Below are positions 23,403 through 64,000 of a stretch of 64,000 nt of DNA, in pieces (position 1 is the first letter of the stretch; every line of letters begins with the position of its first letter). Location: NCBI GenBank assembly GCA_027484315.1, contig JAIXTE010000073.1, positions 1 through 64,000 of the forward strand. The letters are read 5' to 3'. Both the position numbers and the translations under genes were made by a program. Source of the DNA: Burkholderiales bacterium. GTDB lineage: Bacteria > Pseudomonadota > Gammaproteobacteria > Burkholderiales > Burkholderiaceae_B. The notes under the pieces are model-generated. The model was not told the DNA's origin. It ran no database searches and worked only from the letters and a program-made list of their open reading frames with translations.

Positions 23403-23405
23403 GTG

Positions 23406-43874: not shown

Positions 43875-43929
43875 GGGCGGCACACTTTTTACAATGGCAT
43901 TTGAAGATCGCAAAGGATTTGAATTCAAT

Positions 43930-45087: not shown

Positions 45088-45090
45088 GAA

Positions 45091-45711: not shown

Positions 45712-46006
45712 CATCTTCCTCGAGTGTTTGCCCAACTTCGGCCAACTTCAGAAAGGATACCTAAAATATCTAAAGCCGTAGCACCAAAAAAAAGCATTTC
45801 ACCCAATGTGGGTCCTTTCTGCACCCAGACTGGGCATGTAAACATTTTTTTCAAAAAACAAAGTTAACACTTGTAAATTGGTTACTTTGTAATATTTTAT
45901 CTGCTAGCATGTCAGCGTTGTTCTTACAAATTCACCCCAGAATTGATGAATGATTGTCACCTGAAATAGCGATAATTCGGGTGAGCGCATCATCAGGAGC
46001 ATTCCC
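45712..46006. other. AT-rich divergent intergenic region
   Basis: About 295 bp between the HTH gene and the small plus-strand gene. It is more AT-rich than its surroundings and carries a run of similar elements (GTTAAC, GTAAAT, GGTTAC, GTAATATT) near 45860-45900, which look like promoter or operator material. I cannot assign a regulator. Confidence 0.4.
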
Positions 46007-46312: not shown

Positions 46313-46362
46313 ACTAAATTTTACTCCCAGTCTGTCGGGCACCTTACTTTACTCTCCTCTTC

Positions 46363-47440: not shown

Positions 47441-48754
47441 TCAGAGTTTGTCGTTCACAAAACGGGCAATCTCATCGAACTGACACTGCGCCAGTTGGGC
47501 TTTGGGCAATCCAAGTATCACCCGAAAATCGCCATTGATCTGCATCAGTACAGCAAATGCGTTGCCTGGTATCGGAACACAGGTGAAATCATCTGCCTCA
47601 AAACCTGCCCCCTGAAAATGCTGTAGTGGAACAGCGCCCAGATTGGAGATAACCACCGTTTCCATGGGGCGTTTGATCAGGAAATTTTTTCGGGTTCGCC
47701 CCAACAAGACATCGACCAGCCACATGGGAAACCAGCGGATCAGGTTAAAGCCCTTGGCAACAGACAACTCCACTTTGGCTTCCAATAACTCACGCAATCG
47801 GGATTGAAAAACTTCGGGTCCCTCTCCTGGCAGCAACTTCACCACCAGCATGCTGCTGAAGTTGGTGACACTTCGCATGGCGGGCATGTGGCGCCTGAGA
47901 TCCACAGGCACTGCAATAAGGGCAGGCAGTGTCGAGCTTTTGTGAGCAAGCGCGGCAAAAGCACAAGCCACTTTGGACAAGGCTTTGGAATGCCCACTGC
48001 CCAAGCTGAAACGCTGCCAGGCATCACCCAGCAAATCCACTTGATTGACGGACTTAGTGGCTGAATTGGTGACTGAGTTGCTGACTGAGTTGTTCACTGA
48101 GAGGCCTGGCTCAGCATGTTCGATCAATCGGCAGGTTGGCACCCGCAGCGAAGGTGATTTTGGTGGGTTCAAGGCTTCAACCAACTGGGCATCACTGAAG
48201 GTCACATTGCTGCCCAGCAAGGGCTCCCCACGCAAGGCACGAAACAGTTCACACAACACGTGAAACCCGCCCATGCCATCCATGATGGCGTGGTGTGTTC
48301 GCATGACTACGAGCAAGCGATTATCAGGCCTGCGTACCACAATGAATTCGACAACCGGGCCGTGGCGAAGATCAATCGGCCAGGCATCCAGAAAATCCAT
48401 GTGCTCGCTGCTGTTTAAACTCCAGTCCACGTGATCCAGCATACGCAGTGAGGGGGGCGGTCCATCATTGACCCAGCGCGACCAACCCAATATGCCTTTC
48501 CAGCGCATGCGCAATGCAGGATTGGCCTGTGTGGTGGTTGCAATTGCGTCTCGCCACACTTGGGCAGGAATGTCCGCTGCACAAGTTCCCTCCAGTGCAA
48601 AACAGATCTGTCGATCTCGTTCCAGGGTCAGGCCACTGCGCCCGATACTGGCGTGGTAATACTCGGAACCCGACACAGGCCGCTCAACCGGTGCGTTGTC
48701 CTGCAAAGTCAGTGTGTTCAAGGCGAGCTGTTGATCAACCATTTCGGAGTGCAT
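47441..48754 (-). CDS. Condensation-domain-type acyltransferase (WS/DGAT or PapA-like), paralogue 1
   Basis: A 437-residue protein. GGAG lies 7 nt before the ATG at 48754; the start overlaps the permease stop by 20 bp. The catalytic motif HHxxxDG appears as THHAIMDGMGG (about 185-195). The region QANPALRMRWKGILGWSRWVNDG is shared with the protein at 53073. A C-terminal SNLGAVPL segment and a Phe-rich tail follow. A low-complexity linker (NSVSNSVTNSATKS) separates the two lobes. Such enzymes esterify an acyl or polyketide chain onto an alcohol. It is the last gene of the PKS/export operon. Confidence 0.8.
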   Translation of the reverse strand: MHSEMVDQQLALNTLTLQDNAPVERPVSGSEYYHASIGRSGLTLERDRQICFALEGTCAADIPAQVWRDAIATTTQANPALRMRWKGILGWSRWVNDGPPPSLRMLDHVDWSLNSSEHMDFLDAWPIDLRHGPVVEFIVVRRPDNRLLVVMRTHHAIMDGMGGFHVLCELFRALRGEPLLGSNVTFSDAQLVEALNPPKSPSLRVPTCRLIEHAEPGLSVNNSVSNSVTNSATKSVNQVDLLGDAWQRFSLGSGHSKALSKVACAFAALAHKSSTLPALIAVPVDLRRHMPAMRSVTNFSSMLVVKLLPGEGPEVFQSRLRELLEAKVELSVAKGFNLIRWFPMWLVDVLLGRTRKNFLIKRPMETVVISNLGAVPLQHFQGAGFEADDFTCVPIPGNAFAVLMQINGDFRVILGLPKAQLAQCQFDEIARFVNDKL

Positions 48755-49907
48755 CCACAATCTCCATTCTCGATGCGCGGTAAGCCGGCAACAATCCACC
48801 CACGGCACCCATGACCAATGAAAACAACAAAACCTGTACACCCACTGCCGGTGTCATGGTGAGTTTGAAAACCACCTCGGAAAATGTTTGAACATTGGTG
48901 GTGGAAATTTCAAGGCGCTGCATCCAGAAGGCGCAGAAAATGCCGAGCAAACCGGCGATCAAACCCAGACTGATCGCTTCAGCCAGAAAAACGGAAAGAA
49001 TATTGCCCCGCTGAAAACCCAGTGCGCGAAGCGTACCAATTTCCCGCACCCGGTTGGCCACACTGGAATACATGGTAATTGTGGCGCCGATCATGGCACC
49101 AAGCGAGAAAATCATCGCAATCGAGGTGCCAAGAATCTCGATGAAGTTGGCCATTTTTTCAGATTGATTGGCGTAAAAAACACTCTCCCGCTGCACATCA
49201 AAATTCAGGCTGGGCTGCTGGCCAACGGCTTGGTCAAAGCGTGAAAACGTCCCGGTGTTTTCCAGTGACACCACCACCGATGAAAAAACCTGGCGCCTGA
49301 AAGCCTGCATGATCTGGTCTCGGTCTGCATGCAGTTCCGACTCGAACCCGCTGCGGTCTGCACTGAACACACCCACCACGCGCCACTGCCGCGCACCGAA
49401 GTTCAGCATGTCCCCCAGTTGAATGCCAAGTCTGCCGCGTGTCAGGCCTTCACCCACAATGACTTCGGATGCGCCAGGTTCAAACAGCCTGCCTGAAATC
49501 AGCTTGATCTGGGGACGCATGCCGATTCCCGCGGCGCTGGTTCCACGCACGACCACGTTGGCATTGCCCTCCCCCCCGGTTCTGGGCAAATTGATCAACA
49601 CCAGCGATTCCGCCACAGCGCGGGAATTGCCCTGCGAATCCGTGGCAAGACCCGGCAAGATGGACGCCAACCGGGCCTGTTCGCGCGTCACGCTACTTTG
49701 CACCTCGGTTTGCGAGCCCTTGCGGATCAACACCACATTGTCATAGGCCCCGGTACCGGCCATGGTTTGGCGCAAGCCTTCCGTCATCATCAGCACACAG
49801 GCAAACACGAAAACCACCAGCGCCATGCCCAGTACAGTCAATGTGGTGGTCAAGCGGCGAGCCCACAGGTTCTTGAGGACAAAGGAAAAGGAAAGACCAC
49901 TTTTCAT
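48735..49907 (-). CDS. ABC transporter permease, FtsX/MacB (DevC-like) family, copy 2
   Basis: A 390-residue protein. The ATG at 49907 forms ATGA with the stop of the other permease. TM1 at about 18-42, a periplasmic MacB_PCD-like domain (45-255), then three helices in the FtsX domain (MIFSLGAMIGATITMYSSVANRVREIGTLRALGFQ ... AYRASRMEIVDALR). It works with the ATPase at 51079 and the other permease to move a hydrophobic substrate from the inner membrane to the adaptor. Confidence 0.9.
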   Translation of the reverse strand: MKSGLSFSFVLKNLWARRLTTTLTVLGMALVVFVFACVLMMTEGLRQTMAGTGAYDNVVLIRKGSQTEVQSSVTREQARLASILPGLATDSQGNSRAVAESLVLINLPRTGGEGNANVVVRGTSAAGIGMRPQIKLISGRLFEPGASEVIVGEGLTRGRLGIQLGDMLNFGARQWRVVGVFSADRSGFESELHADRDQIMQAFRRQVFSSVVVSLENTGTFSRFDQAVGQQPSLNFDVQRESVFYANQSEKMANFIEILGTSIAMIFSLGAMIGATITMYSSVANRVREIGTLRALGFQRGNILSVFLAEAISLGLIAGLLGIFCAFWMQRLEISTTNVQTFSEVVFKLTMTPAVGVQVLLFSLVMGAVGGLLPAYRASRMEIVDALRNG

Positions 49908-51070
49908 GTGACCGCCCTTAAACCATCGACAATGCGAATGCGCCGGCTGTTGACCATCGGGGCGATGGCTGCAAAAAAGCCAATCACCACGCAAGCCAGC
50001 AACTGAAGCACAAGCGTGGTCTGTGTGATTTCAAACACCAGAAACAGGTCGCGTGTCAGTGAGAAAAACCCGCTGGCAGCCGGGAAAGACAAGGCAATGC
50101 CGATCACCCCGCCCAACAGCGACAAGGCCATGGATTCCCCGAAAATCAGGGCATTGATGAACCCGGCAGAAAACCCCAGTGAACGCAGGGTTGAGTATTC
50201 TCGCGTGCGTTCCCGGGCTGCCATGGCCATGGTATTGGCCATGACCGCCATGATGATCAGTATTACCACATACGCCACGGTTTGAATGGCCACGAGAATG
50301 GTGTCCACCATGGCAATGAAGCCGAGCTGAAAAGCCTTCTGTGTTTCAGTACGCGTTTCGCTGACGGAATTCCGAAATCCGGAATCGATCAATTCACTGG
50401 CTTGCGCCGTGGGCACACCTTCAGACAGATTGACCACGTAGACACCCACCCGGTCAGCCAGGTTGGGTAACACGCTCTTGATGGTTTCATTGACATAGGT
50501 CCAGTGCATGATCATCTGGCTGGTGTCGACCTTGTCGTCTTTGCCAGTGTAAATGCCGCGAATCACGAAGCTCCAGTTGCCGGGGTACAGGGTACCGCGC
50601 AAGGGGACCTGGTCCCCCACTTTCCAGTTGAATTTGCGCGCGGTTTTTTCACCCACAATCACACCCCGCCGGTCGAGCTTGAAATCACTCAACTGCGAGG
50701 GTTCCACCACGAATTCGTCGTACACCCGAAAATAGGAATCGGCATCGACTGCAAACTGCGGAAAGAAATTCTTTTCATCAATGTAAACACCACCAAACCA
50801 GTTGGCCCAGGTGACCGACTCCACACCCTCCACGCGGCGAATTCGCTCGGCATAACTCAAGGGCAACGGCAAGGCCAGTGAGGTCGCGTTGCGGGTAATC
50901 AGCCGAGAAGCCGAGCCCAGTTCTGCACCCGCATACCAGGAATCGACCACGGTGCGCAGCATGCCAAATGACAGAATGGCCACCGCAATGCCCAGCACAG
51001 TCATGCCTGATCTGAACTTCTGACGCCACATGTTTCGGGTGGCCAGGATAATGATGTACTGAATCTGCAT
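49904..51070 (-). CDS. ABC transporter permease, FtsX/MacB (DevC-like) family, copy 1
   Basis: A 388-residue protein starting at the ATG at 51070, 8 bp after the ATPase stop. It has TM1 (about 18-38), a periplasmic domain with VIVGEKTARKFNWKVGDQVPL, and three C-terminal helices with ARERTREYSTLRSLGFSAGF, the coupling region toward the ATPase. It differs clearly from copy 2, so the transporter is probably a heterodimer of permeases. Confidence 0.9.
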   Translation of the reverse strand: MQIQYIIILATRNMWRQKFRSGMTVLGIAVAILSFGMLRTVVDSWYAGAELGSASRLITRNATSLALPLPLSYAERIRRVEGVESVTWANWFGGVYIDEKNFFPQFAVDADSYFRVYDEFVVEPSQLSDFKLDRRGVIVGEKTARKFNWKVGDQVPLRGTLYPGNWSFVIRGIYTGKDDKVDTSQMIMHWTYVNETIKSVLPNLADRVGVYVVNLSEGVPTAQASELIDSGFRNSVSETRTETQKAFQLGFIAMVDTILVAIQTVAYVVILIIMAVMANTMAMAARERTREYSTLRSLGFSAGFINALIFGESMALSLLGGVIGIALSFPAASGFFSLTRDLFLVFEITQTTLVLQLLACVVIGFFAAIAPMVNSRRIRIVDGLRAVT

Positions 51071-51078
51071 GGGCCGCT

Positions 51079-51801
51079 TTACACCGACTGAACTACGGAT
51101 TGCGCTGACGAGATCGCCGGTGTTGGCGTTGGCATCAATTCGCCCTTGACCAGGTGCACTTGGTTGCGCGCGCGTGCAGCGCATTGCGGGTCGTGGGTCA
51201 CCATCACAATGGTTTTGCCCAGTTCACGGTTCAAGCGATCCAGCAAATTCAACACGTCATCAGCAGACTGCCGATCCAGGTCGCCGGTTGGCTCGTCGGC
51301 CACAATCATTTGCGGGTCGGTAATCAAGGCGCGCGCAATCGCAACCCGTTGCTGTTGCCCACCGGAAAGCTCGTTGGGATAGTGATCCATTCGATCACTC
51401 AAGCCCACCATGCCCAGCGCCATTTCCACGTGTTCCTTGCGCTCGCGCTTGCCCAGCGAGGTCAGCAGCAAAGGCAACTCCACATTTTCAAAGGCATTCA
51501 ACACGGGCATCAAGTTGTAAAACTGAAAAATGAAACCCACGTTGTTGGCGCGCCACCGGGCCAGGTCACCTTCACTGAGAGCAGACAGTTCAATGCCTGC
51601 CACCTTCAGTGAGCCCTTGGTCGGTTTGTCCAGACCGGCGATCAGGTTCAACAGCGTACTTTTTCCTGAACCGGAAGGCCCCATCAGGGAGACATAATCA
51701 CCACGGGCAATGTCGAGTGAAACGTCCAGCAACACAGGCACGTCCTGGTTACCGCGTTGGTAGGTTTTCACCAGGTTGCGAATGGCGATCAATGTGTCCA
51801 C
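51079..51801 (-). CDS. ABC transporter ATP-binding protein (MacB/LolD/DevA type)
   Basis: A 240-residue ATPase with Walker A GPSGSGKST, Q-loop, signature LSGGQQQR, Walker B MIVADEPTGDLD and the switch His in VMVTHD. The sequence and length match LolD/MacB-N/DevA ATPases that serve FtsX-type permeases. It powers export through the two permeases downstream. The adaptor gene stops 3 bp before its start. Confidence 0.95.
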   Translation of the reverse strand: MDTLIAIRNLVKTYQRGNQDVPVLLDVSLDIARGDYVSLMGPSGSGKSTLLNLIAGLDKPTKGSLKVAGIELSALSEGDLARWRANNVGFIFQFYNLMPVLNAFENVELPLLLTSLGKRERKEHVEMALGMVGLSDRMDHYPNELSGGQQQRVAIARALITDPQMIVADEPTGDLDRQSADDVLNLLDRLNRELGKTIVMVTHDPQCAARARNQVHLVKGELMPTPTPAISSAQSVVQSV

Positions 51802-51804
51802 GCC

Positions 51805-53061
51805 TTACTCCTTGATCGAAACCAGTTGACCCGATTCAAGGTCGCCTGGCGGATTCATGACCAGAGACTGACCAACCTTCAAGGTACTTGCAGTGGACTG
51901 CCCATCAGATTGAGCGCCGGGCAGCGTGATGGCCTGAAGGTCGCCGAGCAATGCACCTTTTTTGACCTCGATCAACTGCACTTTGCCACTTTCCACCACG
52001 GCAACAAAACTCTGTTCACCACGCGAAATCAGCGCATTGGGGCTGACAGCCAGCAAGGGAGCACTGGTGGCCTGCTCAAGCGGCTGGCTCAAAAAGCTGA
52101 CCCTGGCGCTCATGTCGGGCAGAATGCCTGCGTCTTTGTCAAGAATACGGATGTTGGCAGTGACCGTGGCGCTGGCCCGGTTCACAGTGGGAACAATGGA
52201 AGCCACCTCACCGCGATATCGCTTTTCCGGATAAGCGTCGAGCGCAATTTCACAGCCCTGCCCCACTGCGATTTTCGAGAGGGCTGATTCGGACACATCG
52301 GCACTGATCTCAAGCGTGTTCATGTCGGCCATCACCACCACTGCACCCTTGGCATCGGCTGCCGAGGACAGTGGCGTGACAATGTCGCCCACGTTGGCAG
52401 AACGTGAAATCACCACGCCATCAAATGGCGCACGGATCTCGGTGTTGTCGAGCGCATTTTTTGCATTGTCCTGATTGGCCAGTGCTGCCGCATAGGAGGC
52501 TTTTGCACTTTGAACGGCAAGTTGCGCACGTTCTGCACGCGAACGCGCATCGCGCAGTGTGGTTTGTGCGATCAAGCCGTTTTGCAACAGCACATTGGAT
52601 TTTTGAAGGTTGTCCTTGGCATCGTTCAATTCGGTTTGTGCATTGGCAATGGCTGATTTGGCCACGTCAGCATTGGCCTGCGCAGCGCGGTATGCCGCTT
52701 GAACGTCATCGCTTTCAAGCCTGGCCACAACCGTGCCTGCCTGGACCTGATCACCCTCACGCACACCCAGCCATTCCACCCGGCCCGTTCCCTTGGATGC
52801 AACCGCAGCGCGTGTTTTTGCAACCACGTAACCGGTGGCATCCAGCGTGGTGAACTGGCGGGAAGGCCATGCGGTGGTGACCCGCGTGGTTTCCACTTCA
52901 AGTGTTCGGCCTTGCAGCGCGTTGAACGCGAACCAAAGCACAGCCAATACAAATGCGATACCCAGCCACTTCACCATGCCTTTTCCTCGCCCCTTGGGGG
53001 TTTGGGGTGCGTGGCCAGGTTCGCGTTTGATTTTCAGTTTGTCCAGATCAACCGAGTTCAA
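51805..53061 (-). CDS. Periplasmic adaptor (MacA/HlyD/DevB-type membrane fusion protein)
   Basis: A 418-residue protein starting at a TTG (53061) followed by NSVDLDKLKIKRE, which is how related beta-proteobacterial adaptors begin; no nearby ATG is better. One TM helix (about 31-47). Barrel-lipoyl halves (VAKTRAAVASKGTGRVEWLGVREGDQVQAGTVVARLES; TEIRAPFDGVVISRSANVGDIV) flank a long helical hairpin (about 118-195). It connects the ABC permeases to an outer-membrane TolC, which is not encoded in this operon. Confidence 0.88.
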   Translation of the reverse strand: MNSVDLDKLKIKREPGHAPQTPKGRGKGMVKWLGIAFVLAVLWFAFNALQGRTLEVETTRVTTAWPSRQFTTLDATGYVVAKTRAAVASKGTGRVEWLGVREGDQVQAGTVVARLESDDVQAAYRAAQANADVAKSAIANAQTELNDAKDNLQKSNVLLQNGLIAQTTLRDARSRAERAQLAVQSAKASYAAALANQDNAKNALDNTEIRAPFDGVVISRSANVGDIVTPLSSAADAKGAVVVMADMNTLEISADVSESALSKIAVGQGCEIALDAYPEKRYRGEVASIVPTVNRASATVTANIRILDKDAGILPDMSARVSFLSQPLEQATSAPLLAVSPNALISRGEQSFVAVVESGKVQLIEVKKGALLGDLQAITLPGAQSDGQSTASTLKVGQSLVMNPPGDLESGQLVSIKE

Positions 53062-53072
53062 AATCCAATGTC

Positions 53073-54272
53073 CTACTGTGAAAAATGCAAGGTGAATGCC
53101 TTGACCAGACGATCAAGCTGACCGTCTCCGTTGTATGTGGCAGGTGCCGAAAATGAAACCACTGTTTGCTCCGGGTAGTTGATGAATATGACATTCAACT
53201 TACCCACCGCACCCGGAATGCCATACAGGTAATTGGCAACAAACCCGGGGAAAGAATACAGACTTGCATTCACTGAACCCATGGACACCAGGCCACCACT
53301 GGGCAAGGCCGGTGACACAGTGTGAAGAATTGCGTCCACTTGCGGAATCAGCTTGCGCAACATGAACCACACGGGCAGCCATCGCAAAGTCTTGATGCCG
53401 GGAAAACTTCGACAATCCACGAAAGCCTTGACCTTGGTGGCAATCTGGTGCATCAATTTTCGCGGTGTTGCCTCGTCCTCCACCTGAAGGCGCAGGTAGC
53501 CAGTCATGTTGCCGATGCCCATTTCAGTCGTACGCAACCCACGGTAATCCACTGGGATTGTGAAGCCTACTTCACCTGGCTCGCGACTGCGGGCATAGCG
53601 GGCAAAGAAGTCAGCCGCCTTGGGAAGCAGCTGATTCACATTGCTGGGCAACACTACCCTGCGCCACACGTAGCGCAGCCCACCAGTGCGCACAGGGTCT
53701 GGCGGAATGACCGGAATGCAGTGCGCCGGCTTGGGATTGATTTCAGGTTGAACCTGGTCCTGATGGGCAGCCTGAATTTCAAGGTCGGTCAATCGGGAGT
53801 TCGATCCTTGCAGGTCTTCTCCGCGCATGGCTCGGCACACCTCCGCAACCCAGTGCATCAAGCCACGGCCGTCAATTGCCGCATGCACCGAGCGAAACAC
53901 AATTCGGGTGAAGCCATCTGTGCACGGCACAATCAGCACATCCGCAACGGCCTGGCCTTTCATGGGGTCAAGCCGCGTTTGCAAAAATTCGGTGTGCAAT
54001 TCGCTTTGACCGTCCCAGTCGCTCAAAGGCAATTTCTTCACTTTGGGAGCAAGGCCGCTATCCACCCACCAGGTCCAGCGCAGCAGGCCACGCAAGCGAA
54101 CCCGTATGGCGGGGTTCGCCTGGGCCGCCTGATCTACTGCCTTTTGCAGGGCAATCGGATCGACATCACCCTGCCCTTCAACAATGCCGTCCACGTGGTA
54201 GCGGTACAGGCGGTTCAGTACCAGCGAATAGCGTTCCAGCGGAGACAGCGGGCGGATGTATCGGTTGATCAT
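53073..54272 (-). CDS. Condensation-domain-type acyltransferase, paralogue 2
   Basis: A 399-residue protein. Its motif is SVHAAIDGRG, so the first His of HHxxxDG is replaced by Val while the catalytic second His and the Asp-Gly remain. QANPAIRVRLRGLLRWTWWVDSG is nearly the same as in paralogue 1 at 47441. A final NVIFINYPEQTVVSFSAPAT segment matches the C-lobe strand of such enzymes. It probably adds an acyl group to the glycolipid or polyketide. The stop of the hydrolase gene overlaps its start by 4 bp. Confidence 0.8.
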   Translation of the reverse strand: MINRYIRPLSPLERYSLVLNRLYRYHVDGIVEGQGDVDPIALQKAVDQAAQANPAIRVRLRGLLRWTWWVDSGLAPKVKKLPLSDWDGQSELHTEFLQTRLDPMKGQAVADVLIVPCTDGFTRIVFRSVHAAIDGRGLMHWVAEVCRAMRGEDLQGSNSRLTDLEIQAAHQDQVQPEINPKPAHCIPVIPPDPVRTGGLRYVWRRVVLPSNVNQLLPKAADFFARYARSREPGEVGFTIPVDYRGLRTTEMGIGNMTGYLRLQVEDEATPRKLMHQIATKVKAFVDCRSFPGIKTLRWLPVWFMLRKLIPQVDAILHTVSPALPSGGLVSMGSVNASLYSFPGFVANYLYGIPGAVGKLNVIFINYPEQTVVSFSAPATYNGDGQLDRLVKAFTLHFSQ

Positions 54273-55108
54273 GCAGACACCTTCAGGGTATCGGGTATGG
54301 CATGATTCTGCTGTCCCTCTTCATCAGTTTCATACCGCAAGGTACCCACCACCACGTCGCGCAAAGGCTCGGGTGCCTCGCTGGGAATGTAGTGACCACA
54401 ATCAATCAGCAAGAGTGCACGAATGGGTAGCAACTTGCGCAAGGTATTGGCCACAGGGCGACAAGGCGATTGTTTGCCATACACCAGCGTCACTGGAAGT
54501 GCCAGTGCGCTCAAGTCTTCAGCCAACTCGGCCTGCATGTTGCACACATCCTGAACCAGCGAGGTTTCAAAAAACAGTTGTTGAAGCCTGCGTGACAAGC
54601 GCTCCAACCTGCGACCGGTCAATTGACCGATCATGTCAGGTGCGCTGCGCAACCAATCGTCCAAGGCCTGCGGCGACTGCACTTGCTGCAAGCTGGGTCG
54701 AACCCACTCGCAGGCTGGCATGGGCGCATCCACCAGAATCAGCCTTCCCACACGGTGCCGCATTTTCAAGGCAAAGCGCAGGGCAATCAAGGCACCCAGG
54801 CTGTGGCCTACCAAATCCACCATTTCACCATCGGGCAAGGTGGCGTCCAGTACACAGGCCAAATCCTCGGCCTGGGTATCCAGGTCATAACCACTCGCAG
54901 GTACTGCACTGTCACCGTGTCCTCGCAAGTCGTACAAAATCACTTGCCGGTCACGGGCCATTTCAAGTGCAGCCACGGAATACCAGGTTGAGATGTTTCC
55001 AGTCACCAGGCCATGCAGAAATACACAAGGGCGTTCCAGTGACTGAGCGGGCCCAAGAGTCATGACAGAAAGCCGGACATTGCCGTTCAATACGGGGATC
55101 AATTGCAT
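54269..55108 (-). CDS. Alpha/beta hydrolase
   Basis: A 279-residue protein with an oxyanion-hole HG (VFLHGLVTG), nucleophile Ser103 in GHSLG and catalytic His near 243 (DCGHYIPSEAP). LPVTLVYGKQSP carries the usual acid-strand region. Within a PKS operon it may act as the thioesterase or transacylase that releases the chain, as neither visible PKS protein shows a TE domain; this is inference. Confidence 0.85.
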   Translation of the reverse strand: MQLIPVLNGNVRLSVMTLGPAQSLERPCVFLHGLVTGNISTWYSVAALEMARDRQVILYDLRGHGDSAVPASGYDLDTQAEDLACVLDATLPDGEMVDLVGHSLGALIALRFALKMRHRVGRLILVDAPMPACEWVRPSLQQVQSPQALDDWLRSAPDMIGQLTGRRLERLSRRLQQLFFETSLVQDVCNMQAELAEDLSALALPVTLVYGKQSPCRPVANTLRKLLPIRALLLIDCGHYIPSEAPEPLRDVVVGTLRYETDEEGQQNHAIPDTLKVSA

Positions 55109-55115
55109 GGTGTAC

Positions 55116-56291
55116 TCACGTCGGTGTGCTCATTTCGGTGTCATTAATCAAATGCACGATGTGCTGTGCAGCACCCTGCGCTCCTGTGGCGTGGGCAAAA
55201 TGCGTGGCCAGTTCTTGGGCTGCCTGCCTGTAAACGGGGTTGTCGAGCAGTTCATTCAGTGTGTGCAAAGCGGCCGCTGGCGTGACTTTTCCAAACCGGA
55301 TTGAAATGCCCGCACCCGCATCAATCACCTGCCGGGCAATCACGGGTTGATCATCCCGAATGGGTGCAACACCCAGCGGAATGCCAAAGCGCAATGCCTC
55401 GCACACGGTGTTGTGGCCCGCATGGCAAACAACTGCATCCATGTGCGGCAACAACTCCATTTGCGGCACAAATGGGCTGACAATCACGTTGGCTGGGGCC
55501 AGTTGAGCCAGGCTTTCAGGGGCCACCACAACTGCCTGTACGTTTGTCATTTGTGCAAAGGCCTGCAGGAATACTTCAAAAAACCGGGTGTCCCTGTCGC
55601 GGCTCACCGTGCCAAGTGTCAGCAGCACTTTGCGCGTGCCAGTTTTCAATTTGTCCCATGGAAAGGCAACCGCTGCGCGTCCCTCACCCTGTGTTGGACC
55701 CACAAATACATAAGGGGCTGGCAAACACTGGTTCAGGTTGCCCATCAACTGTTGGTTGGAAAACACCAGCACCGCATGCGGTGACAAATCGGGTCGCGCC
55801 CTGTGCAATTCGGCAGGCAACAATTCATTCTGCAAGCTGGCAAATTGCGAGGACACCCATTCATCCAGTGTGTCGGACAACCTCAGGATGGATGCAGTGG
55901 TGGTGACCAGGCTGACCCAGGGCAAACCTGCAGCCTGTGCTGCCAGCGCCCCTGCAGGCATTTGGTGATCCACGACCAGCATGTCGGGTTTGAAGTCGTC
56001 AATGATATTCAGGATCGGCTTGAAACAGGCCCGTGTCATTGGCACGCAGTAATCTTCAAAAAACAGGCGAACACTTTCCAGGCCCCGCACCTTGGTGCTG
56101 TCCAGTTCACCAGCGGGGTCGAACTGACCAATGTCAAAGCACCGCATGGCCGGATCCATCCGGTTGCCCACGCGGTCCATGTGAACAGCCCAGGCGACCA
56201 CATGCCCTTGCGACTGAAGGTGTTTGGCCACCGCCAGTGCCGGGTTCAAATGGCCCACCAGGGGCGGTGCAGTGAATAGAATGTTTGCCAT
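55116..56291 (-). CDS. Glycosyltransferase, GT1/MGT family
   Basis: A 391-residue GT-B enzyme. The N-lobe starts with ILFTAPPLVGHLNPALAVAKHL, and the C-lobe has the nucleotide-sugar signature VCHAGHNTVCEALRFGIPLGVAPIRDDQPVIA. This is the family that glycosylates macrolides, carotenoids (CrtX-type) and lipids such as heterocyst glycolipids (HglT-type). It lies 5 bp after the ACP gene, so it probably glycosylates the PKS product. The sugar donor is unknown. Confidence 0.92.
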   Translation of the reverse strand: MANILFTAPPLVGHLNPALAVAKHLQSQGHVVAWAVHMDRVGNRMDPAMRCFDIGQFDPAGELDSTKVRGLESVRLFFEDYCVPMTRACFKPILNIIDDFKPDMLVVDHQMPAGALAAQAAGLPWVSLVTTTASILRLSDTLDEWVSSQFASLQNELLPAELHRARPDLSPHAVLVFSNQQLMGNLNQCLPAPYVFVGPTQGEGRAAVAFPWDKLKTGTRKVLLTLGTVSRDRDTRFFEVFLQAFAQMTNVQAVVVAPESLAQLAPANVIVSPFVPQMELLPHMDAVVCHAGHNTVCEALRFGIPLGVAPIRDDQPVIARQVIDAGAGISIRFGKVTPAAALHTLNELLDNPVYRQAAQELATHFAHATGAQGAAQHIVHLINDTEMSTPT

Positions 56292-56296
56292 TGACC

Positions 56297-56578
56297 TTAC
56301 TTCGGTTCTGTCTGCGTTTCGATGTAATCGACCAACTGGCCCACATTCAAGCCAATGAGCTCATTGATCGACTTGCCGGAAAGCCAGGCTGCAATATTCA
56401 GGCGATCACCATAATGCTGTTGAATCGCATTGGCGATCTTGACGAATTCAATGCTCTCTATTTCCAGGTCTTCGTTGAACCGGGTCTCAAGATCGATTTC
56501 AAAATCATGGATCCAGTCCTCATTGATGGTGGAGCGAATTTTTTCGACAACAAGATTCAAAATCAGGGCTTGGGTCAT
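56297..56578 (-). CDS. Free-standing acyl carrier protein
   Basis: A 93-residue acidic protein. The ATG at 56578 overlaps the PKS stop by 4 bp; the longer frame upstream shadows the PKS end. The phosphopantetheine site is in FNEDLEIESIEFVKIAN, with Glu replacing the usual Asp before Ser. It has the four-helix ACP pattern, with an extra stretch (YGDRLNIAAWLSGKS) between helices as in PKS-associated ACPs. It probably carries a chain for one of the transferases or supplies a starter unit, and is activated by the PPTase domain encoded just upstream. Confidence 0.85.
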   Translation of the reverse strand: MTQALILNLVVEKIRSTINEDWIHDFEIDLETRFNEDLEIESIEFVKIANAIQQHYGDRLNIAAWLSGKSINELIGLNVGQLVDYIETQTEPK

Positions 56579-59500
56579 TTGCTGGAAGCGTTGATGTTCG
56601 TTGGTGAAATTCCCTTGGGCAAAGTCCAGCCCAAGACATGTTGCGGCAAACGGTGAGTAATCACCCAGATGCCGCCAATACAAAAATAATCGTCCACGCG
56701 GGCTTCGATTCGATAGTCGAGCAGGTGCCCGCCCAAACCGGTTCCGCGGTATTTTCCGTAGGCCTCTTTGGCCACCCAGGCCCGCAGGAAGCAGAGCGTG
56801 CGGTCTTCGCCTGCTCGAAGCACCAAGCTGTTTTCCTGCGAACTGAAAGCCAGGTTGATGGCACTTTCCGAAAAGTTTTCGATTCTTTCAATGTCGATGC
56901 CCACAGGCTGGGTGTCTGCAATCGCCACGGCATACTGGTCTTTGTGACTGATGGAAATGTGCAGGTTGACCGGCACCGTGGTGCTGACATTGGGATGCAA
57001 AACCGGCTTGCCGTTGTCATCGTTGTACACGCACATTTCCTGCGGAAACACGGACGCAATGCCATTGCTTTTCAACAAAAAAAACACGGAATCCTTGGCA
57101 GCCACTCGACCTGCCAGCCATTGGCGCTTTCGCTTGGGCGCAATCGACTGGTAGAGCCGCTGTTCCAGCGCACTGAGGTATCTGCGTGACAGGTAATCCC
57201 GCAGAATTGCCGTGTCGTAACGGTCTTCAAACAAGGCTATATTGGGCGGCAATTCGATTGAACAAGCCTGTGTGTCGAGCTTTCGGGAGTTTTCCCAAAG
57301 GGGCTTGTCCATCTGGTAGCGGCGTGTTTTCCAGCCCGTGATGGAGAGCACGCACTGCCCATGCTGATTGAACAGGCGATGGTCTGAAACACATTCAAGG
57401 TCAGTCAATTCACGAATGCGCACTTGCGCCTGCAACAACTCACCCACTTCAGGGTCTGCGGCGTGAAACTCGATTCGATCCACGCCGATGGGCATGGCCA
57501 GGCAATTCTCGGGCAATTCCATCACCCAGTAGCCAGCAAGTTGGCCCATGTTGTCCAGCAGGGAACCCTGACCGGTGGGCACTTTCAACACCCCATCAAT
57601 GCCGTTGTTACCTACGGCTTGAATGCAATCCACACCTTGATAGGCCGGGCCATGAAACATCCAGCGCTCGCGATACAGGGATTTTGCATCCACTTGCGAA
57701 GCGCGCGGCTTTTCGAGTGCTTCAAGCGGTGCCAGTGCCTGCGCCCAGTCATCCGCCACTTCCACCACTGCCCTGAAATAGTTCTTGATTTCAACCGCCA
57801 AGCGGTTTGCCGACAGCACACTGATCTGCATGTTCACCGTGACAGGTTTGCTCACTGCCAGCCAGTTGAAGGCCTCAATGGCGGTGACTGCAACCACGCG
57901 GGTACTCAAGCCCTGGCGCTGCAGATGGTCCTGAACAAGATCACGCACCATGAGCACTTCCATGGTCATGGGCACCACGGGGTGACGGTCTTCAACAATT
58001 GGCCAATCCGGCTTTTGCGGATACAGTTCGTGGTCACGTACCCAGGGAATGGTTTCATTCAAATCAAGCAGGCGGCTGACTGTGATTGGCTGGGTCTGCA
58101 AAGCGGCAACCGCTGCATGGCCTGGCTGACCATGCTGAGAAATGCGCTGAGAAATGCGCTGATGAATATGCGAACTGGGCTGAACAGGCTGAATGTTCTG
58201 CGTGTGCAAGGCACGCGCCTGCTTCCACAGCTGAACCACTTCACGGCTACCCGATTGAATGTCCAGCAGGGTTGTTCGAATCATCTGGCCCACTTCATCA
58301 GTGAGTTCAGGATCATCCAGGTCAGCAGAATTGTTGTGTACCTGCCTTGCAGGCAGCTCAACCTGCAACGCACCCAGTTCGGGAACACCAAGCCTCAAGC
58401 GAACACTTTGCGCAGAATCCATTGGCCGTTCAACCGGGCAATCCGGCAACAGGCGCGCTGAAAAATCAAGCCCGTCAGCCCACAGTGCAGCACTCAAGTG
58501 CTGCAACTGAAGCAGGCCTTCCCGGCTGTCGTGGCTGCTGTACAGCGCAGCATGGGGCAATTTGCCCAGTGTGTCAGAAACAAATCCGGGTAGAGAACCG
58601 TAGCCCACCTGAATGAACACGCGAACACCCGATTCATACATGTTCAGGATGGTTTCCCGAAAGCGCACAGGCTTGACCAGGTGCTCTATGGCAAGCGCCT
58701 TGATCTCGGTTTCATTTGCAGGAAAAGGCTGCGCGGTTGTCGCAGACCACACGGTATCCGCTGTAGCGCGCAAAGTCACTGAATTGAAAAACCGCTTGTA
58801 CCATCCCAGGTGCCCCTGAAAAAGCGAGCTGTGAAAACCCGACACAATGGGCAACACTTGATGAAAAACACCCTGGCTTGCAAGCCGGGCGGCCAGCGTG
58901 CTGATCTGTTGCTCAGGACCGCAGGCTATGACCTGGTTGGGGCAATTGTCATGGGAAAGTTCAACTTTCTCAAGATCAGCAAACTGGGCTTGAAGCGTTT
59001 GAACATCGCATGATGCAGCCAGAAAACGCACATCGGGAAACTTGAAGTCATCAAATTTCAAACTGGCATTGGTCATGTCCGACACCGACTGGTCCATCAT
59101 GCCGGAAGTCAGCATGGCGCTCCATTCACCAATGCTGTGACCTGCATAGAAATCGGGAAGCACTCGCAATTCAGAGAGGCGATCAAACAGGTATCGGTTG
59201 AAACCCAAAAGCCCCAAAACCACAGGCAAAAGATTGTCCGTGGTTGACTGGGGTACACAGTGTTCCGGCAGCGACTTGTCGAAAAAGGATTCGAAACCTT
59301 CGGTCCGCGGGTTGAACTGGCTGTCCACACCGGGGAACACGAAAGCCACTTTGCCCCCTGAGGACAACAAGCCATTGGGCGTGAACCACACCTGTTGTCG
59401 CCCCATCCAGGGCTTGCCCGCTGCAATGGCTTTTCTGGCCACAGCAAGCCGTTTGGCATCGGGATCCAGCACTGCCAGTCGGCAAGTGCCAGCAAGGCGG

Positions 59501-60996
59501 CCGACACGTCCGGTTTTTTCATACAGGTCCAGTTGCGCCAACAAGGCTTCCGGATTGGCCGCAGCCAAACGCAACACGGGTTTCAGCAAAGCGGATTTTT
59601 CATGGTCCTGCCCCGCTGCGCAACCGCTCAACACCAGGTGGGCGTTGATCCCGCCAAAGCCAAATGCATTCACACCGGCCAAACGTTCTGTCACCGCAGT
59701 ATTCCAGGGCAACGCCTTGCCAAGCACCTTGAATGCGGTGTGTTCCAGGCGTGGATGTGGCTGGCTGCAATTCAGTGTGGGTGGCAACACCCCGTGGTAG
59801 ACCGACAGCGCCACTTTGATCAGTGAAGCCATGCCCGATGCCGGCATGGCATGACCAATCATCGACTTCACTGAACCAATGACAGCCCGCGTGGACTTGT
59901 TGCCTTCACCAAAAAAACGACCCACCGTGTCCAGTTCAACATCGTCTCCGGCAGGGGTTCCTGTGCCGTGCGCTTCCAGCAAACCGATCTGGCCTCTGTG
60001 TTTGTCCACCGTGGACCAGGCGCGTTCCATGGCCAACAACTGGCCCGAAGTCGAAGGTGCCACCAGGCTGCTTGCCCGGCCATCGCTGGCTGAACCGGCG
60101 CCTTCAATCACCGCGTAAATTCTGTCATTGTCAAACAAGGCGTCGTCAAGCCGCTTGAGCACCACCATGCCCACACCTTCACCGGCCAGAATGCCATCGG
60201 CCTGTGCAGAGAACGGACTGCTTTTCCCGGAACGGGACATGGCGCCCAACTGGCAAAAGGTGGCCCAAAACGTGAGGTCATGCGACACGTGCACACCACC
60301 CACCAGCATCAGGTCGGCAGTTTTATTGGATAACAACTGGCAGGCCTGCTCCACGGCCAGCAACGAGCTGGCACATGCGGCATCCACCGTGTAGGCCGGC
60401 CCGTGCAAATCCAGCCGATTGGCCAATCGGGATGCAGTGAAATTCGGGATCAAGCCGGAAGCAACGTCGGGGCCATAAGGAGTCAGTTGCGCCATCAAGG
60501 CCGACTTCACCTTTTGAATATCGGCAGTGTCCATGTCGGGGAACAGCGACTTCAAGGTGCTCACAATTTGCGGCACCACGCGCACATGCTGTTCAAGCCG
60601 GATCACGCCTGCACTGACATAATTGCCTTTGCCCACAATGACGCCGGTCTTTTCCCGAGGGAAGTCCTTGTCGAGATAACCCGCATCGTCGAGTGCCATT
60701 TGCCCGATTTTCAAGGCGAGCAACTGGTCGGGTTCAGCGGAGTCCACTGTTTTTGGCATGACACCAAACTCAAGTGGATCAAACTCTGCGTAAGAGTCGA
60801 TGAAGCCGCCCAGCTTGCAATAGAACTTGTCCACATCCCGCGACTGCGGATCGTAGTGCGACAGGTCCCAACGCTGTGGTGGCACCTCGGTGATGGCACT
60901 TTTGCCGTCATAGATGTTGCGCCAGTAGGTCTGAAGATCTTTGGCCCCGGGAAACACGCAGGCCATGCCGATGATGGCAATCTTCTCCATGCTCAT
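56575..60996 (-). CDS. Polyketide/secondary-lipid synthase, KS-AT-DH-PPTase
   Basis: A 1473-residue protein. KS (1-450) with active-site Cys208 (VDAACASS), His343 (EAHGTGTPAGD) and His382 (MIGHA), so it looks active. AT (about 545-850) has GHSIGE (Ser621) and GFHS (His722). A Gln/His-rich linker with an ISQ repeat (about 935-970) precedes the DH double hot-dog (about 975-1230), with His1005 in DRHPVVPM and Asp1148 in GSLLDNMGQLAGYW. PPTase (about 1240-1465) has GIDIERIENF and WVAKEAYGKYRG. There is no ACP inside; the partners at 60993 and 56297 provide them. The layout recalls Pfa and enediyne-type PKS. Its start overlaps the upstream PKS stop by 4 bp. Confidence 0.93.
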   Translation of the reverse strand: MSMEKIAIIGMACVFPGAKDLQTYWRNIYDGKSAITEVPPQRWDLSHYDPQSRDVDKFYCKLGGFIDSYAEFDPLEFGVMPKTVDSAEPDQLLALKIGQMALDDAGYLDKDFPREKTGVIVGKGNYVSAGVIRLEQHVRVVPQIVSTLKSLFPDMDTADIQKVKSALMAQLTPYGPDVASGLIPNFTASRLANRLDLHGPAYTVDAACASSLLAVEQACQLLSNKTADLMLVGGVHVSHDLTFWATFCQLGAMSRSGKSSPFSAQADGILAGEGVGMVVLKRLDDALFDNDRIYAVIEGAGSASDGRASSLVAPSTSGQLLAMERAWSTVDKHRGQIGLLEAHGTGTPAGDDVELDTVGRFFGEGNKSTRAVIGSVKSMIGHAMPASGMASLIKVALSVYHGVLPPTLNCSQPHPRLEHTAFKVLGKALPWNTAVTERLAGVNAFGFGGINAHLVLSGCAAGQDHEKSALLKPVLRLAAANPEALLAQLDLYEKTGRVGRLAGTCRLAVLDPDAKRLAVARKAIAAGKPWMGRQQVWFTPNGLLSSGGKVAFVFPGVDSQFNPRTEGFESFFDKSLPEHCVPQSTTDNLLPVVLGLLGFNRYLFDRLSELRVLPDFYAGHSIGEWSAMLTSGMMDQSVSDMTNASLKFDDFKFPDVRFLAASCDVQTLQAQFADLEKVELSHDNCPNQVIACGPEQQISTLAARLASQGVFHQVLPIVSGFHSSLFQGHLGWYKRFFNSVTLRATADTVWSATTAQPFPANETEIKALAIEHLVKPVRFRETILNMYESGVRVFIQVGYGSLPGFVSDTLGKLPHAALYSSHDSREGLLQLQHLSAALWADGLDFSARLLPDCPVERPMDSAQSVRLRLGVPELGALQVELPARQVHNNSADLDDPELTDEVGQMIRTTLLDIQSGSREVVQLWKQARALHTQNIQPVQPSSHIHQRISQRISQHGQPGHAAVAALQTQPITVSRLLDLNETIPWVRDHELYPQKPDWPIVEDRHPVVPMTMEVLMVRDLVQDHLQRQGLSTRVVAVTAIEAFNWLAVSKPVTVNMQISVLSANRLAVEIKNYFRAVVEVADDWAQALAPLEALEKPRASQVDAKSLYRERWMFHGPAYQGVDCIQAVGNNGIDGVLKVPTGQGSLLDNMGQLAGYWVMELPENCLAMPIGVDRIEFHAADPEVGELLQAQVRIRELTDLECVSDHRLFNQHGQCVLSITGWKTRRYQMDKPLWENSRKLDTQACSIELPPNIALFEDRYDTAILRDYLSRRYLSALEQRLYQSIAPKRKRQWLAGRVAAKDSVFFLLKSNGIASVFPQEMCVYNDDNGKPVLHPNVSTTVPVNLHISISHKDQYAVAIADTQPVGIDIERIENFSESAINLAFSSQENSLVLRAGEDRTLCFLRAWVAKEAYGKYRGTGLGGHLLDYRIEARVDDYFCIGGIWVITHRLPQHVLGWTLPKGISPTNINASSK

Positions 60997-63900
60997 GCCA
61001 CGTGACCCGTCGCTTCGCCGGCTGCTTCACCCGCAGTTTCACCCAAGAAGCTGGCGGGCTTGCCCGACATCAGCACCACCTGTGCTTCCATCTGCGGACA
61101 ACCCAATTCGGCCAGCAAGGCAAATACACCGGCGTCCTTGGGCACAAGGCCGATCTGCTTGCTTGCATATTCCTTGCGCAGGGAATCGTTGACCATGCCT
61201 GTGTCGGCCCACGGCCCCCAGTTCACAGACAACACCCTGCCCTTGATCCGCGCTTGCCAACTGTGGGCAATCTTGTCCAGTGCATCATTGGCGCTGGCGT
61301 AATCGGCCTGTCCTCGGTTGCCAAACGCACTGGCCACACTGGAGAAGAACACCACAAACTGGACATCGTCACAGATCTGGTCACGCAGCACCTGCGCGGC
61401 GTTCACCTTGGTGTTGAATACACGCTCAAAACTTTCCTGCGTTTTGTCCTTCAAGAGCTTGTCTTCAATCACACCGGCACCATGAACCACACCGTCGATC
61501 CGGCCGTGCTTCTGATAAATTTGCTGAATCAGCTCACCAAAAGCCACGCTGTCCTGAACGTCCAGCGCGTGATAGGCCACTTCAGCCCCCACCGACTGAA
61601 TCAACTGCATGGTCTGGCGGAACTCGCGTTCAGACAACAGCGTGCGAATTCGTTTTTCAATTTCAGCGGGCTTGCTGTCCGGGTGTGCAGTCAACAGAAT
61701 TTGTCGCAGGCGCTTGGTGTCGTTATGTCCACGCGTGTGTTCTGCTTCCTCACCCAAGGGTGCCGCAGAACGGCCAACCAGTTCCAGCTTGCAACCATGT
61801 CGCCTGGCCAGTTCAATGGCCACCAGTGCAGTGATGCCCTTGGCCCCGCCCGTCAGCAACACCACGCTGTCCGAATTCAGTGGCAGGTTCTGTATCTGCC
61901 CGGCTTCCAGAATGCTGGGCACCACATCGACCACGTAGCGACTTGAGCCTCTTCGCAACACCTCGTTGAAACGGTCCTTGCCCAGCAACTCCAGGCTAAC
62001 CGCGTGGGCAACTTCTGCGGGTTCCTGGTCTGCATCCACATCAAGTACGCGCACGTTCAAATCAGGAAACTCACGCGCCAGTGACTTGACCAAACCAGCC
62101 AGGCCAGCGCCCCGATCCGGGTTGCTGTTCGCAAGTGAAGGCTTCAGGCCCAAAGCAGTCACCACCAGAATGTGCTTGCAGCCCGCCAACACCGCAGCGC
62201 GGGCCATGGTGAAAAAGGCTTTCACATCGGCAATGCGCGACGCAGGGTCAATGCTCCACAAATGCACCAGCACTTCCGCCTTGATCGCCGCGCTGGTCAG
62301 CACATTGGGACCATCCTGAAAGTAGACCGAATCCACAAAGGCACCTTGTGCCTTGAGCAAATCAGCCAGCACATCCGACACACCCAGTGTGTCGCGGGTC
62401 AGGCAAACAAACTGCCCGGTCAAATTGAGTCGATCACGGGTTTCTGGTATTTCCCGGCTGCGAAGCACATAGCGCTCGAACGGGATGGTGTCAAAGGCAA
62501 TGTCCTTTTCTTCCGCTTCCACAGGTGTGGGTTTGGAAGGTGCCTGGCTGGCCTTGCTTGCATTGAACACCTGCAGCATGTCCTGCAAGGTTCGGGTGTT
62601 TGCAAGGGCCGCGCTCAGGGTGCGGCGGCTTTCCTGTCCGGCGACCAGGCCAAGCGCATCAAGCCACTGGCCCACAATTTCCACCCGCTTGATCGAATCA
62701 ATTGAAAGGTCGGCTTCCAGATCAAGATGCGACTCCAGGGCATCGGTGGGATAACCCGTGGTGCTCGAAATAATGTCCAGCAACAACGACTCCGCATCGA
62801 TCGCACTCACTTGGGGTTCTGCAGCAGCCTCAATCACGGCAGTTTCACCGGCGAGACCGGATGAGTCAGATTCAGCGCCGGCAGGCAACACCGCTTCCAG
62901 CATGTCGAGCATGTGGCGCAAGGTTCTGCTTTGACCCAGTTTTTCAATCTGGGCCGCCGCATCTGCGCCCAATCGATTTCTCAAATTCAGTGCGTCTGAC
63001 CATTCACCGGTAATCTCTACGCGCTTGATTGAATCAATGGACAAATCAGCTTCCAGATCCAGGTCAAGGTCCAGTGTTTCTTCTGGATAACCTGTACGTT
63101 CACTCACCAGCGCAAGCAACACTTTGGCGGGTGACAGGGCAGCCTGTTTCGGAATTGTGGGCGTGGCTGCACTGGGTAACGAAGTCGCCGTGGATGCAGC
63201 AGCTTGCTGAACAGTTGGCAAGGCATTTGGCGATTGCGCACTGCGCTGAAGAGGCTGCCTGGGTGGGTTGGGCTGGGAAGGTGTACCCAAATAGCTCATC
63301 AGCACATCGCGCTGGGCATTCACCAACTCACGCATATTGTTCAGGTAATTGAATACGGCAGAAGACGACTCGCCTTCTGTGGACAGTGACGCTGAACCCA
63401 ACACCGTCACTTGCCCCATCCGAACCACGGGTTCGGTCACAGGCGGAACAATGCGCAAGTTGCCAGGCTTAGCTGGCACAGCCTTGGCTCCATCGAGCCA
63501 CCAGGTGGATGCGGCCAGGGTTTCCGGCTTGTCCAGATCTACAGGGGTGGTGCGGCCATTGAACAACTCACTGGCGTCAAAGCCTTGAACATTCACGGCA
63601 AGTTGAGCCAATGCACCCAGCAATCCAGCCAGCGAGCCCTCGGCCTGGTCCATGGCCACAACGGGAATCGGCGAGCCGGGAAGAATCTTGCCCAATAGGC
63701 CAGTCAACACGCGCTTGGGACCAATTTCCACAAACAGGTCAGCACCCTGTGCCACCATGTTTTCAACTTCTTCCACCCAACGAACCGGGCTTGAAATCTG
63801 TTCGGCCAGCGTGCTGACCAACTCATCAATGCCTGGGCCATACGGCATGGAAGTCTTGTTACTGAACACAGGAAATGCAGGAGACTTCAAATTGATCTGT

Positions 63901-64000
63901 CGCAAAGCCTGCGCAAAGGACACGCTTGCGCCGCTCAATTGAGGTGAGTGAAACGCACAGGCCGTGGCGATTGGCTTGCAGGCCAGTCCATTGGCCTTCA
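60993..64000 (-). CDS. Polyketide/secondary-lipid synthase, visible AT-ACP-ACP-KR (5' end outside window)
   Basis: An open minus-strand frame enters from the right edge; about 1001 C-terminal residues are visible. First the end of an AT domain, with the catalytic-His segment CAFHSPQL, then EIGPKRVLTGLL. An Ala/Pro/Gln linker leads to two ACP domains, each with LEADLSIDSIKRVEI (Ser codons near 63032 and 62696). Next comes a split KR: a structural half with LVVTALGLKPSLANSNPDRGAG, and a catalytic half with LLTGGAKGITALVA, HGAGVIEDKLL, VVFFSSVASAFGNRGQADYASANDALD. A KS probably precedes the AT. PfaA and HglE have this KS-AT-ACPn-KR layout. No ER is visible. It overlaps the next gene by ATGA. Confidence 0.93.
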   Translation of the reverse strand, partial: KANGLACKPIATACAFHSPQLSGASVSFAQALRQINLKSPAFPVFSNKTSMPYGPGIDELVSTLAEQISSPVRWVEEVENMVAQGADLFVEIGPKRVLTGLLGKILPGSPIPVVAMDQAEGSLAGLLGALAQLAVNVQGFDASELFNGRTTPVDLDKPETLAASTWWLDGAKAVPAKPGNLRIVPPVTEPVVRMGQVTVLGSASLSTEGESSSAVFNYLNNMRELVNAQRDVLMSYLGTPSQPNPPRQPLQRSAQSPNALPTVQQAAASTATSLPSAATPTIPKQAALSPAKVLLALVSERTGYPEETLDLDLDLEADLSIDSIKRVEITGEWSDALNLRNRLGADAAAQIEKLGQSRTLRHMLDMLEAVLPAGAESDSSGLAGETAVIEAAAEPQVSAIDAESLLLDIISSTTGYPTDALESHLDLEADLSIDSIKRVEIVGQWLDALGLVAGQESRRTLSAALANTRTLQDMLQVFNASKASQAPSKPTPVEAEEKDIAFDTIPFERYVLRSREIPETRDRLNLTGQFVCLTRDTLGVSDVLADLLKAQGAFVDSVYFQDGPNVLTSAAIKAEVLVHLWSIDPASRIADVKAFFTMARAAVLAGCKHILVVTALGLKPSLANSNPDRGAGLAGLVKSLAREFPDLNVRVLDVDADQEPAEVAHAVSLELLGKDRFNEVLRRGSSRYVVDVVPSILEAGQIQNLPLNSDSVVLLTGGAKGITALVAIELARRHGCKLELVGRSAAPLGEEAEHTRGHNDTKRLRQILLTAHPDSKPAEIEKRIRTLLSEREFRQTMQLIQSVGAEVAYHALDVQDSVAFGELIQQIYQKHGRIDGVVHGAGVIEDKLLKDKTQESFERVFNTKVNAAQVLRDQICDDVQFVVFFSSVASAFGNRGQADYASANDALDKIAHSWQARIKGRVLSVNWGPWADTGMVNDSLRKEYASKQIGLVPKDAGVFALLAELGCPQMEAQVVLMSGKPASFLGETAGEAAGEATGHVA

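Follow-up and report, generated by a model that had tools for sequence, protein, structure and literature searches.

A candidate operon for the synthesis and export of an acylated glycolipid in a Burkholderiales bacterium

What is made by an operon that encodes a Pfa-like synthase, a glycosyltransferase, two condensation-type enzymes, and an ABC exporter? This question is raised by a 64,000-nucleotide stretch of Burkholderiales bacterium DNA (GCA_027484315.1, contig JAIXTE010000073.1), which we call the window; it corresponds to positions 1 to 64000 of the 81,284-base contig (C88:1-64000). The answer we favor, with a probability of roughly 0.58, is an acylated glycolipid, which the operon would also export. 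The operon consists of eleven minus-strand open reading frames (ORFs) running from C88:68189 down to 47441. A sequence-only reading of the window had described eleven minus-strand genes with overlaps or gaps of at most 11 bp that continue beyond the right edge. This description held: if each gene is given its most plausible start, the ten junctions measure -4, -4, +5, +7, -4, +11, +3, +8, -4, and -8 bp (-8 to +11 bp), and the sequence obtained to the right of position 64000 contains the rest of the first gene, PKS1, whose start lies at C88:68189 or 68195. The ORFs listed for CAT2, FtsX1, and FtsX2 probably begin too far upstream. In transcription order, the genes are as follows.

60993..64000, minus strand: PKS1, in-window part (end of the acyltransferase [AT] domain, acyl carrier proteins ACP1 and ACP2, ketoreductase [KR]); the gene runs to C88:68189 and the whole protein has 2398 aa
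56575..60996, minus strand: PKS2, 1473 aa, with ketosynthase (KS), AT, a single dehydratase (DH), and a C-terminal phosphopantetheinyl transferase (PPTase)
56297..56578, minus strand: stand-alone ACP; start probably ATG 56578 (listed ORF, TTG 56683)
55116..56291, minus strand: GT1-type glycosyltransferase, EryCIII/UDPGT-like
54269..55108, minus strand: alpha/beta hydrolase (ABH), thioesterase-like, GHSLG serine and His present
53073..54272, minus strand: CAT1, condensation-fold enzyme with HxxxD (H130, D134); AlphaFold2 (AF2) mean pLDDT, 91.1
51805..53061, minus strand: HlyD/MacA-type periplasmic adaptor
51079..51801, minus strand: ABC ATPase of the LolD/MacB kind
49904..51070, minus strand: FtsX1, MacB/FtsX-type permease 1 (listed ORF start, 51184)
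48735..49907, minus strand: FtsX2, MacB/FtsX-type permease 2 (listed ORF start, 49994)
47441..48742, minus strand: CAT2, second condensation-like enzyme, HHxxxDG motif; Pfam Condensation match below the cut-off

Pfam matches across the operon cover KS, AT, ACP, KR, DH, PPTase, GT1, alpha/beta hydrolase, HlyD-type adaptor, ABC ATPase, and two MacB/FtsX permeases. Promoter-like sites upstream of PKS1 were at the chance level (1 found versus 0.7 expected).

What kind of synthase begins the pathway? PKS1 carries an N-terminal tandem FabK/NMO-like region (about residues 1 to 667), followed by KS, AT, two ACP, and KR domains; the fold of the N terminus was predicted, and the enoyl reductase (ER) here is FabK-like. 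The best family model for PKS1 is PfaA (TIGR02813), which scores 944.9 bits over the whole protein against a cut-off of 1010.1 bits. PKS1 has two ACP motifs (residues 1721 and 1833, numbered from the upstream TTG) rather than the 4 to 6 tandem ACPs of Pfa systems, and PKS2 has one KS with an intact Cys-His-His triad and one PS-DH match rather than a KS-chain length factor (CLF) pair and two DH domains; no CLF domain was seen in the domain scans of PKS1 and PKS2. Membership in the polyunsaturated fatty acid (PUFA) synthases was rejected on the PfaA cut-off. A PUFA synthase supplying membrane phospholipids, a reading that draws on PfaA being the best PKS1 model, is very improbable given the subthreshold score, the two ACPs, the single DH, the lack of a visible CLF, and KS domains that form clades of their own; it also leaves no place for GT1 and the two CAT enzymes.

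These clades come from a quick tree of 86 rows out of 182 extracted KS domains, which had a very long FabF outgroup and did not include HglE or PKSE. The PKS1 KSs formed one clade of 30 rows (support, 100) inside a larger group of 47 rows (98) that also includes PfaA-like, phenolic-lipid (Beijerinckia), and other references. The PKS2 KSs formed a separate clade of 31 rows (100) that excludes the PfaC-type KS and CLF-like domains from Persicobacter and from a Streptomyces plasmid. Three KSs of a Calothrix plasmid cluster, which could not be named as HglE, also fell apart from the operon KSs.

A fused ER-KS-AT-ACP-KR protein with a second protein that ends in a PPTase fits Type M as worded in the available text of PMC13291983. 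The PKS2 PPTase has the motifs ISISH, which fits hShxH, and NGKP, which fits x(G/D)xP; this pair is reported for Types M to T in the available text of Shulse and Allen 2011 (PMC3098273). Since the PPTase carries these motifs and the layout fits the description of a Renibacterium-like fused PfaD-PfaA/PfaBC, the synthase core is probably Type M, a likeness judged from published wording and motifs rather than from Type M sequences. The absence of a CLF is a point against this assignment. Among the 80 loci kept in a scan of named genomes (289 stretches, 215 relatives), no title contained Frankia, Actinosynnema, Renibacterium, or S. avermitilis.

How might the chain be tailored? The best model for GT1 is a macrolide glycosyltransferase (150.1 bits; cut-off, 260). 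The earlier claim of two condensation-type enzymes is supported. CAT1 has no Pfam match and CAT2 scores 27.7 bits with Pfam Condensation, under the cut-off of 30.6, but the AF2 structure predicted for CAT1 is a two-lobed condensation-domain fold, as in the Condensation/PapA superfamily. The HxxxD motif is kept in 27 of 27 CAT rows and, in a separate count, in 21/21 rows for CAT1 (22 found, 1 dropped) and 18/18 for the CAT2 query (22 found, 4 dropped, with CAT1 cross-hits among them). A DFGWG-type second motif, a mark of this superfamily, was not found in the CAT1 and CAT2 consensus.

The same enzymes might instead release or otherwise modify the carrier-bound chain, for example by dehydration or amide formation, rather than acylate the sugar. 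The solved structure nearest CAT1, 8s6l, bears the title "AzeD dehydratase" (molecule name, dimycocerosyl transferase), and the condensation fold is therefore no proof of acyl transfer, which counts against the reading we favor. Among 21 plasmid records with a CAT1 relative (about 27 to 30% identity), 15 were listed; in 12 of these the relative lies under genes annotated as nonribosomal peptide synthetase (NRPS) or adenylation-domain proteins, and 3 lack annotation. On the other side stand the invariant HxxxD, a CAT1 profile with a further, weak match to a BAHD hydroxycinnamoyl transferase (E = 0.11), and the position of the CAT genes, which adjoin GT1 in these loci, although no search for NRPS genes was made there. 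On balance, we consider nonacylating CATs quite unlikely.

Where would the product go? The exporter had been called DevBCA-like, a label that the family models do not uphold: the ATPase scores 210.6 bits with DevA (cut-off, 295.8), the adaptor scores 65.3 bits with DevB (cut-off, 129) and among the models shown passes only the general RND_mfp, and DevC is matched by FtsX2 only, at 28.3 of 290.35 bits. DevBCA membership was rejected on these scores. The DevBCA exporter has a single permease gene, whereas FtsX1 and FtsX2, both with MacB core and FtsX domains, are two. The best model for the ATPase is LolD (247.7 bits; cut-off, 307.75), followed by MacB (232.2 bits; cut-off, 966) and YbbA, and it also scores with the darobactin exporter DarD; membership in LolD or MacB was likewise rejected, the LolCDE/MacB equivalog cut-offs not being reached. 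A further putative component lies just upstream of the operon.

C88:68422-69792, divergent: TolC-family gene, a narrow pass with TIGR01844 (226.1 versus 225.15 bits)

The Lol system has two distinct permeases. Given two different permeases together with an adaptor and TolC, the exporter looks like a Lol-type extractor with a MacAB-type exit, a layout that suits a lipid substrate but is no proof of one. The product could also be a small molecule (surfactant, antibiotic, or signal) that is released through a MacAB-like pump, a glycosylated and acylated polyketide rather than an envelope lipid. Against release, the ATPase scores best with LolD, PKS1 scores best with PfaA, which is a lipid synthase, and the permeases are two as in Lol, none of which fixes the destination. 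In favor of release are the macrolide-type model for GT1, the MacB and DarD scores of the ATPase, and a Pfa-like hybrid in Chitinimonas that yields a released surfactant (available text of PMC13291983). We judge release unlikely, though more credible than nonacylating CATs.

For the acylated glycolipid that we favor, the analysis shows the domains, the conserved catalytic residues, the gene order and its conservation, and the predicted folds of CAT1 and the PKS1 N terminus, and from these we infer every chemical step, the substrate, chain length, sugar, and destination. PKS1 and PKS2 would jointly form an iterative synthase whose fused PPTase charges its own ACPs. The synthase would extend with malonyl units, with ketoreduction, dehydration, and enoyl reduction possible, and the resulting chain would be long, largely reduced, and probably hydroxylated. 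The hydrolase may free the chain, or direct acyl transfer may do so. GT1 would put a sugar on the chain, and CAT1 and CAT2 would esterify the glycoside or, PapA-like, take the carrier-bound chain as donor. Export would follow through the complex of the ATPase and two permeases, the adaptor, and TolC, which would carry the product out of the inner membrane to the cell surface or beyond. The earlier outline of a lipid that is made, glycosylated, acylated, and exported accordingly survives as the best functional reading, with its labels changed to a Type M-like synthase and a MacB/Lol-type exporter.

Is the gene set more than a local assembly? The operon recurs in scattered water and soil bacteria, and the whole gene order recurs in other families at about 28 to 80% protein identity. 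Counting contigs that reach far enough, the synthase is adjoined by the ACP in 72 of 78 loci, GT1 in 72 of 75, and ABH in 73 of 76. Core loci occur in Actinomycetota, Acidobacteriota, Planctomycetota, Myxococcota, Thermodesulfobacteriota, and Pseudomonadota; GT1 precedes ABH in the exporter-bearing clade, including the window, and ABH comes first in Streptomyces and other loci. Of the 64 loci that extend at least 9.3 kb downstream, 15 carry the adaptor, the ATPase, and both permeases, and all 15 have both CAT genes (CAT2 is upstream of PKS1 in locus L050). These exporter loci belong to Nevskiaceae, Paraperlucidibaca, a Mesorhizobium metagenome-assembled genome (MAG), and MAGs titled Proteobacteria bacterium (three) or bacterium (one); the carriers named by species are Hydrocarboniphaga effusa AP103, Solimonas aquatica, Stagnimonas aquatica, and Paraperlucidibaca baekdonensis. 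In a quick PKS2 tree (the window and 33 of the 80 loci), all exporter loci fall inside one 22-row clade (support, 100), in which Teredinibacter is the sole member shown to lack the exporter and five others are too short to tell. Two changes of state explain exporter presence on this tree. A TolC-like match occurs in 6 of the 15 exporter loci.

An unrelated drug pump merely located in the operon would agree with how common MacB-like pumps are and with the occurrence of the core without an exporter in many phyla. We nevertheless find it highly improbable, because in 15 loci from several families, all in one clade, the four exporter genes follow CAT1 in a fixed order and the CATs are always present. 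The grouping of the eleven genes is more than chance, as judged from the sequences, because the genes are intact in a congener (G131), synonymous changes are in excess, and the whole order recurs in other families. The ten operon genes compared with G131, the short ACP gene being left out, are intact in both genomes, and the ratio of synonymous to nonsynonymous codon changes ranges from 2.7 to 1 (PKS1) up to 28.5 to 1 (FtsX1).

Further observations weigh against an acylated glycolipid. Outside the exporter-bearing clade, most loci are a core without the exporter, so an acylated glycolipid is only one possible output. For 9 of the 15 exporter loci, the stretch fetched showed no TolC-like gene. 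The second ACP is retained in only 24 of 77 PKS1 rows, though in 20 of 21 within the exporter-bearing clade; the KR Tyr is retained in 68 of 77; and the ABH catalytic residue is Ser in 72 of 76 rows and Cys in 4. MGT-type GT1 enzymes and MacB-type pumps also serve secreted antibiotics.

Several variants of the locus were seen. A leucine-carboxyl-type methyltransferase gene, absent from the window operon, lies between ABH and CAT1 at L030:8186-9028 (G206) and L043:15279-16157 (Paraperlucidibaca). The Streptomyces sp. NBC_01243 plasmid (L127; 869 kb, typed mobilizable) carries a six-gene core of two synthase proteins, ACP, hydrolase, glycosyltransferase, and a methyltransferase unlike the leucine-carboxyl type. 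CAT-like genes without an exporter were seen in L047, L048, L049, L051, L057, and L062 (L048, L049, L051, and L057 are too short for certainty), with CAT1 on the opposite strand in L048, L049, and L051; such loci are possible intermediates of the add-on.

How did the operon arrive in this genus? CAT1 occurs in 2 of 16 genus genomes, the source genome and G131, and the molybdopterin oxidoreductase gene that lies beyond TolC occurs in 14 of 16. In a family sample of 200 genomes, 187 match the PKS2 query (AT-DH-PPTase region, 974 aa) at all; among the matches listed, only those in the source genome and G131 are full length, the others being short and AT- or PPTase-like. In a class sample, 3 of 369 genomes match at E 1e-30: the source genome, G206, and, weakly, G525. 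Of four operon-less congeners, three (G112, G162, and G066) have the molybdopterin gene beside a homologue of C88:4695-6011 and one (G147) is uninformative; in G162, a homologue of C88:6183-7184 lies on the other side. In the window, these two genes are adjacent and the molybdopterin gene is about 62 kb away beside the operon. The neighborhood (a variable region, about C88:6000-69800) has therefore been rearranged; a clean insertion of about 62 kb was not borne out by the G162 gene order. Over a 19.9-kb piece of the interval, G131 is collinear at 92%, and four others are not. The window PKS2 groups with that of Paraperlucidibaca, a Moraxellaceae (support, 99). The patchy presence in genus and family, the rearranged flanks, and this grouping point to horizontal gain. 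Contamination as the source of the contig (draft contamination, 5.38%) was rejected, as the one-contig congener G131 has the same operon and flanks.

Next to the operon lies a gene found in the same 2 of 16 congeners, possibly an accessory.

46363..47439, plus strand: convergent membrane-rich protein, 358 aa, no Pfam match

It had no match in the 80 named loci. No tRNA lies within the window, and a defense-gene scan of five window proteins (41668-47439) scored only a class V aminotransferase (DndA/SspA), which we take as expected for the superfamily. The rearranged interval beside the operon also holds an AcrB-type RND pump with an adaptor and a histidine kinase (33669-40446). The window further contains an EptA/EptB-like phosphoethanolamine transferase (29077-30732), a 501-aa protein with three DUF5666 matches (30820-32325), and a minus-strand ORF run (22011-28499) that includes an AMP-binding enzyme (26242-27804) and is possibly another small biosynthetic operon.

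What, then, is new? That one operon unites a Pfa-like synthase, GT1, two condensation-type enzymes, and an exporter was supported, the exporter being a tripartite ABC system and the grouping being conserved in other bacteria. Combining synthesis, glycosylation, and export at one locus is not in itself new, the cyanobacterial hgl island already uniting a synthase, HglT, and export genes (available text of PMC11804610). We recognized no account of the operon in open-license papers from titles and abstracts, supplements excluded, and within that literature the conserved acyltransferase-exporter add-on looks undescribed. Few products of Pfa-like secondary lipid synthases are known (available text of PMC13291983). 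The operon supplies such a synthase with a defined tailoring set and a dedicated route across both membranes, and because carriers are named by species, the long-open question of synthase products can be asked in such strains. A bolder version, against which we think the odds lean somewhat, is that the operon is a Gram-negative counterpart of mycobacterial surface acyl-glycolipids. In this version an iterative lipid synthase, two PapA-like acyltransferases, a glycosyltransferase, and a Lol/MacB-type extractor with TolC would form a unit, apparently moved as a whole between proteobacterial families, and would make a new polyacylated glycolipid class as a coat of the cell surface. Should the product be a glycolipid of the surface, it would show how a diderm without a mycolic membrane assembles and exports a bulky acyl-glycolipid.

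Among the known systems that resemble the operon are the Type M secondary lipid synthases of Frankia, Actinosynnema, Renibacterium, and Streptomyces avermitilis (available text of Shulse and Allen 2011, PMC3098273). It shares with them the fused ER-KS-AT-ACP-KR protein, the PPTase-ended second protein, and the hShxH motif. The uncharacterized Type M cluster of Renibacterium is described as very similar to a fused PfaD-PfaA combined with a PPTase-bearing PfaBC (available text of PMC13291983). A PfaBC would contain a CLF, which the operon lacks; the operon ER is FabK-like; and the CATs and exporter go unmentioned in the available Type M descriptions. Like the hgl island, the operon groups an iterative Pfa-like synthase, a glycosyltransferase, and ABC export genes; it differs in its non-Dev, two-permease exporter, its DH- and PPTase-bearing PKS2, and its two condensation-like enzymes. 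It shares KS-AT-ACPn-KR order with the Pfa PUFA synthases and departs from them in the features given above. Enediyne PKSE has KS-AT-ACP-KR-DH-PPTase in one chain, whereas the operon distributes its domains between two chains and has an N-terminal ER. The mycobacterial sulfolipid-1, diacyltrehalose (DAT), and phthiocerol dimycocerosate (PDIM) loci use MmpL export rather than ABC plus TolC, and PKS1 scores far below the Pks2 family model (470 bits; cut-off, 2400). With MacAB-TolC and LolCDE, the operon has in common an adaptor, a LolD/MacB-type ATPase, MacB-core FtsX permeases, and TolC, and it is set apart from both by combining two separate permeases with an adaptor and by scoring below the LolD and MacB cut-offs.

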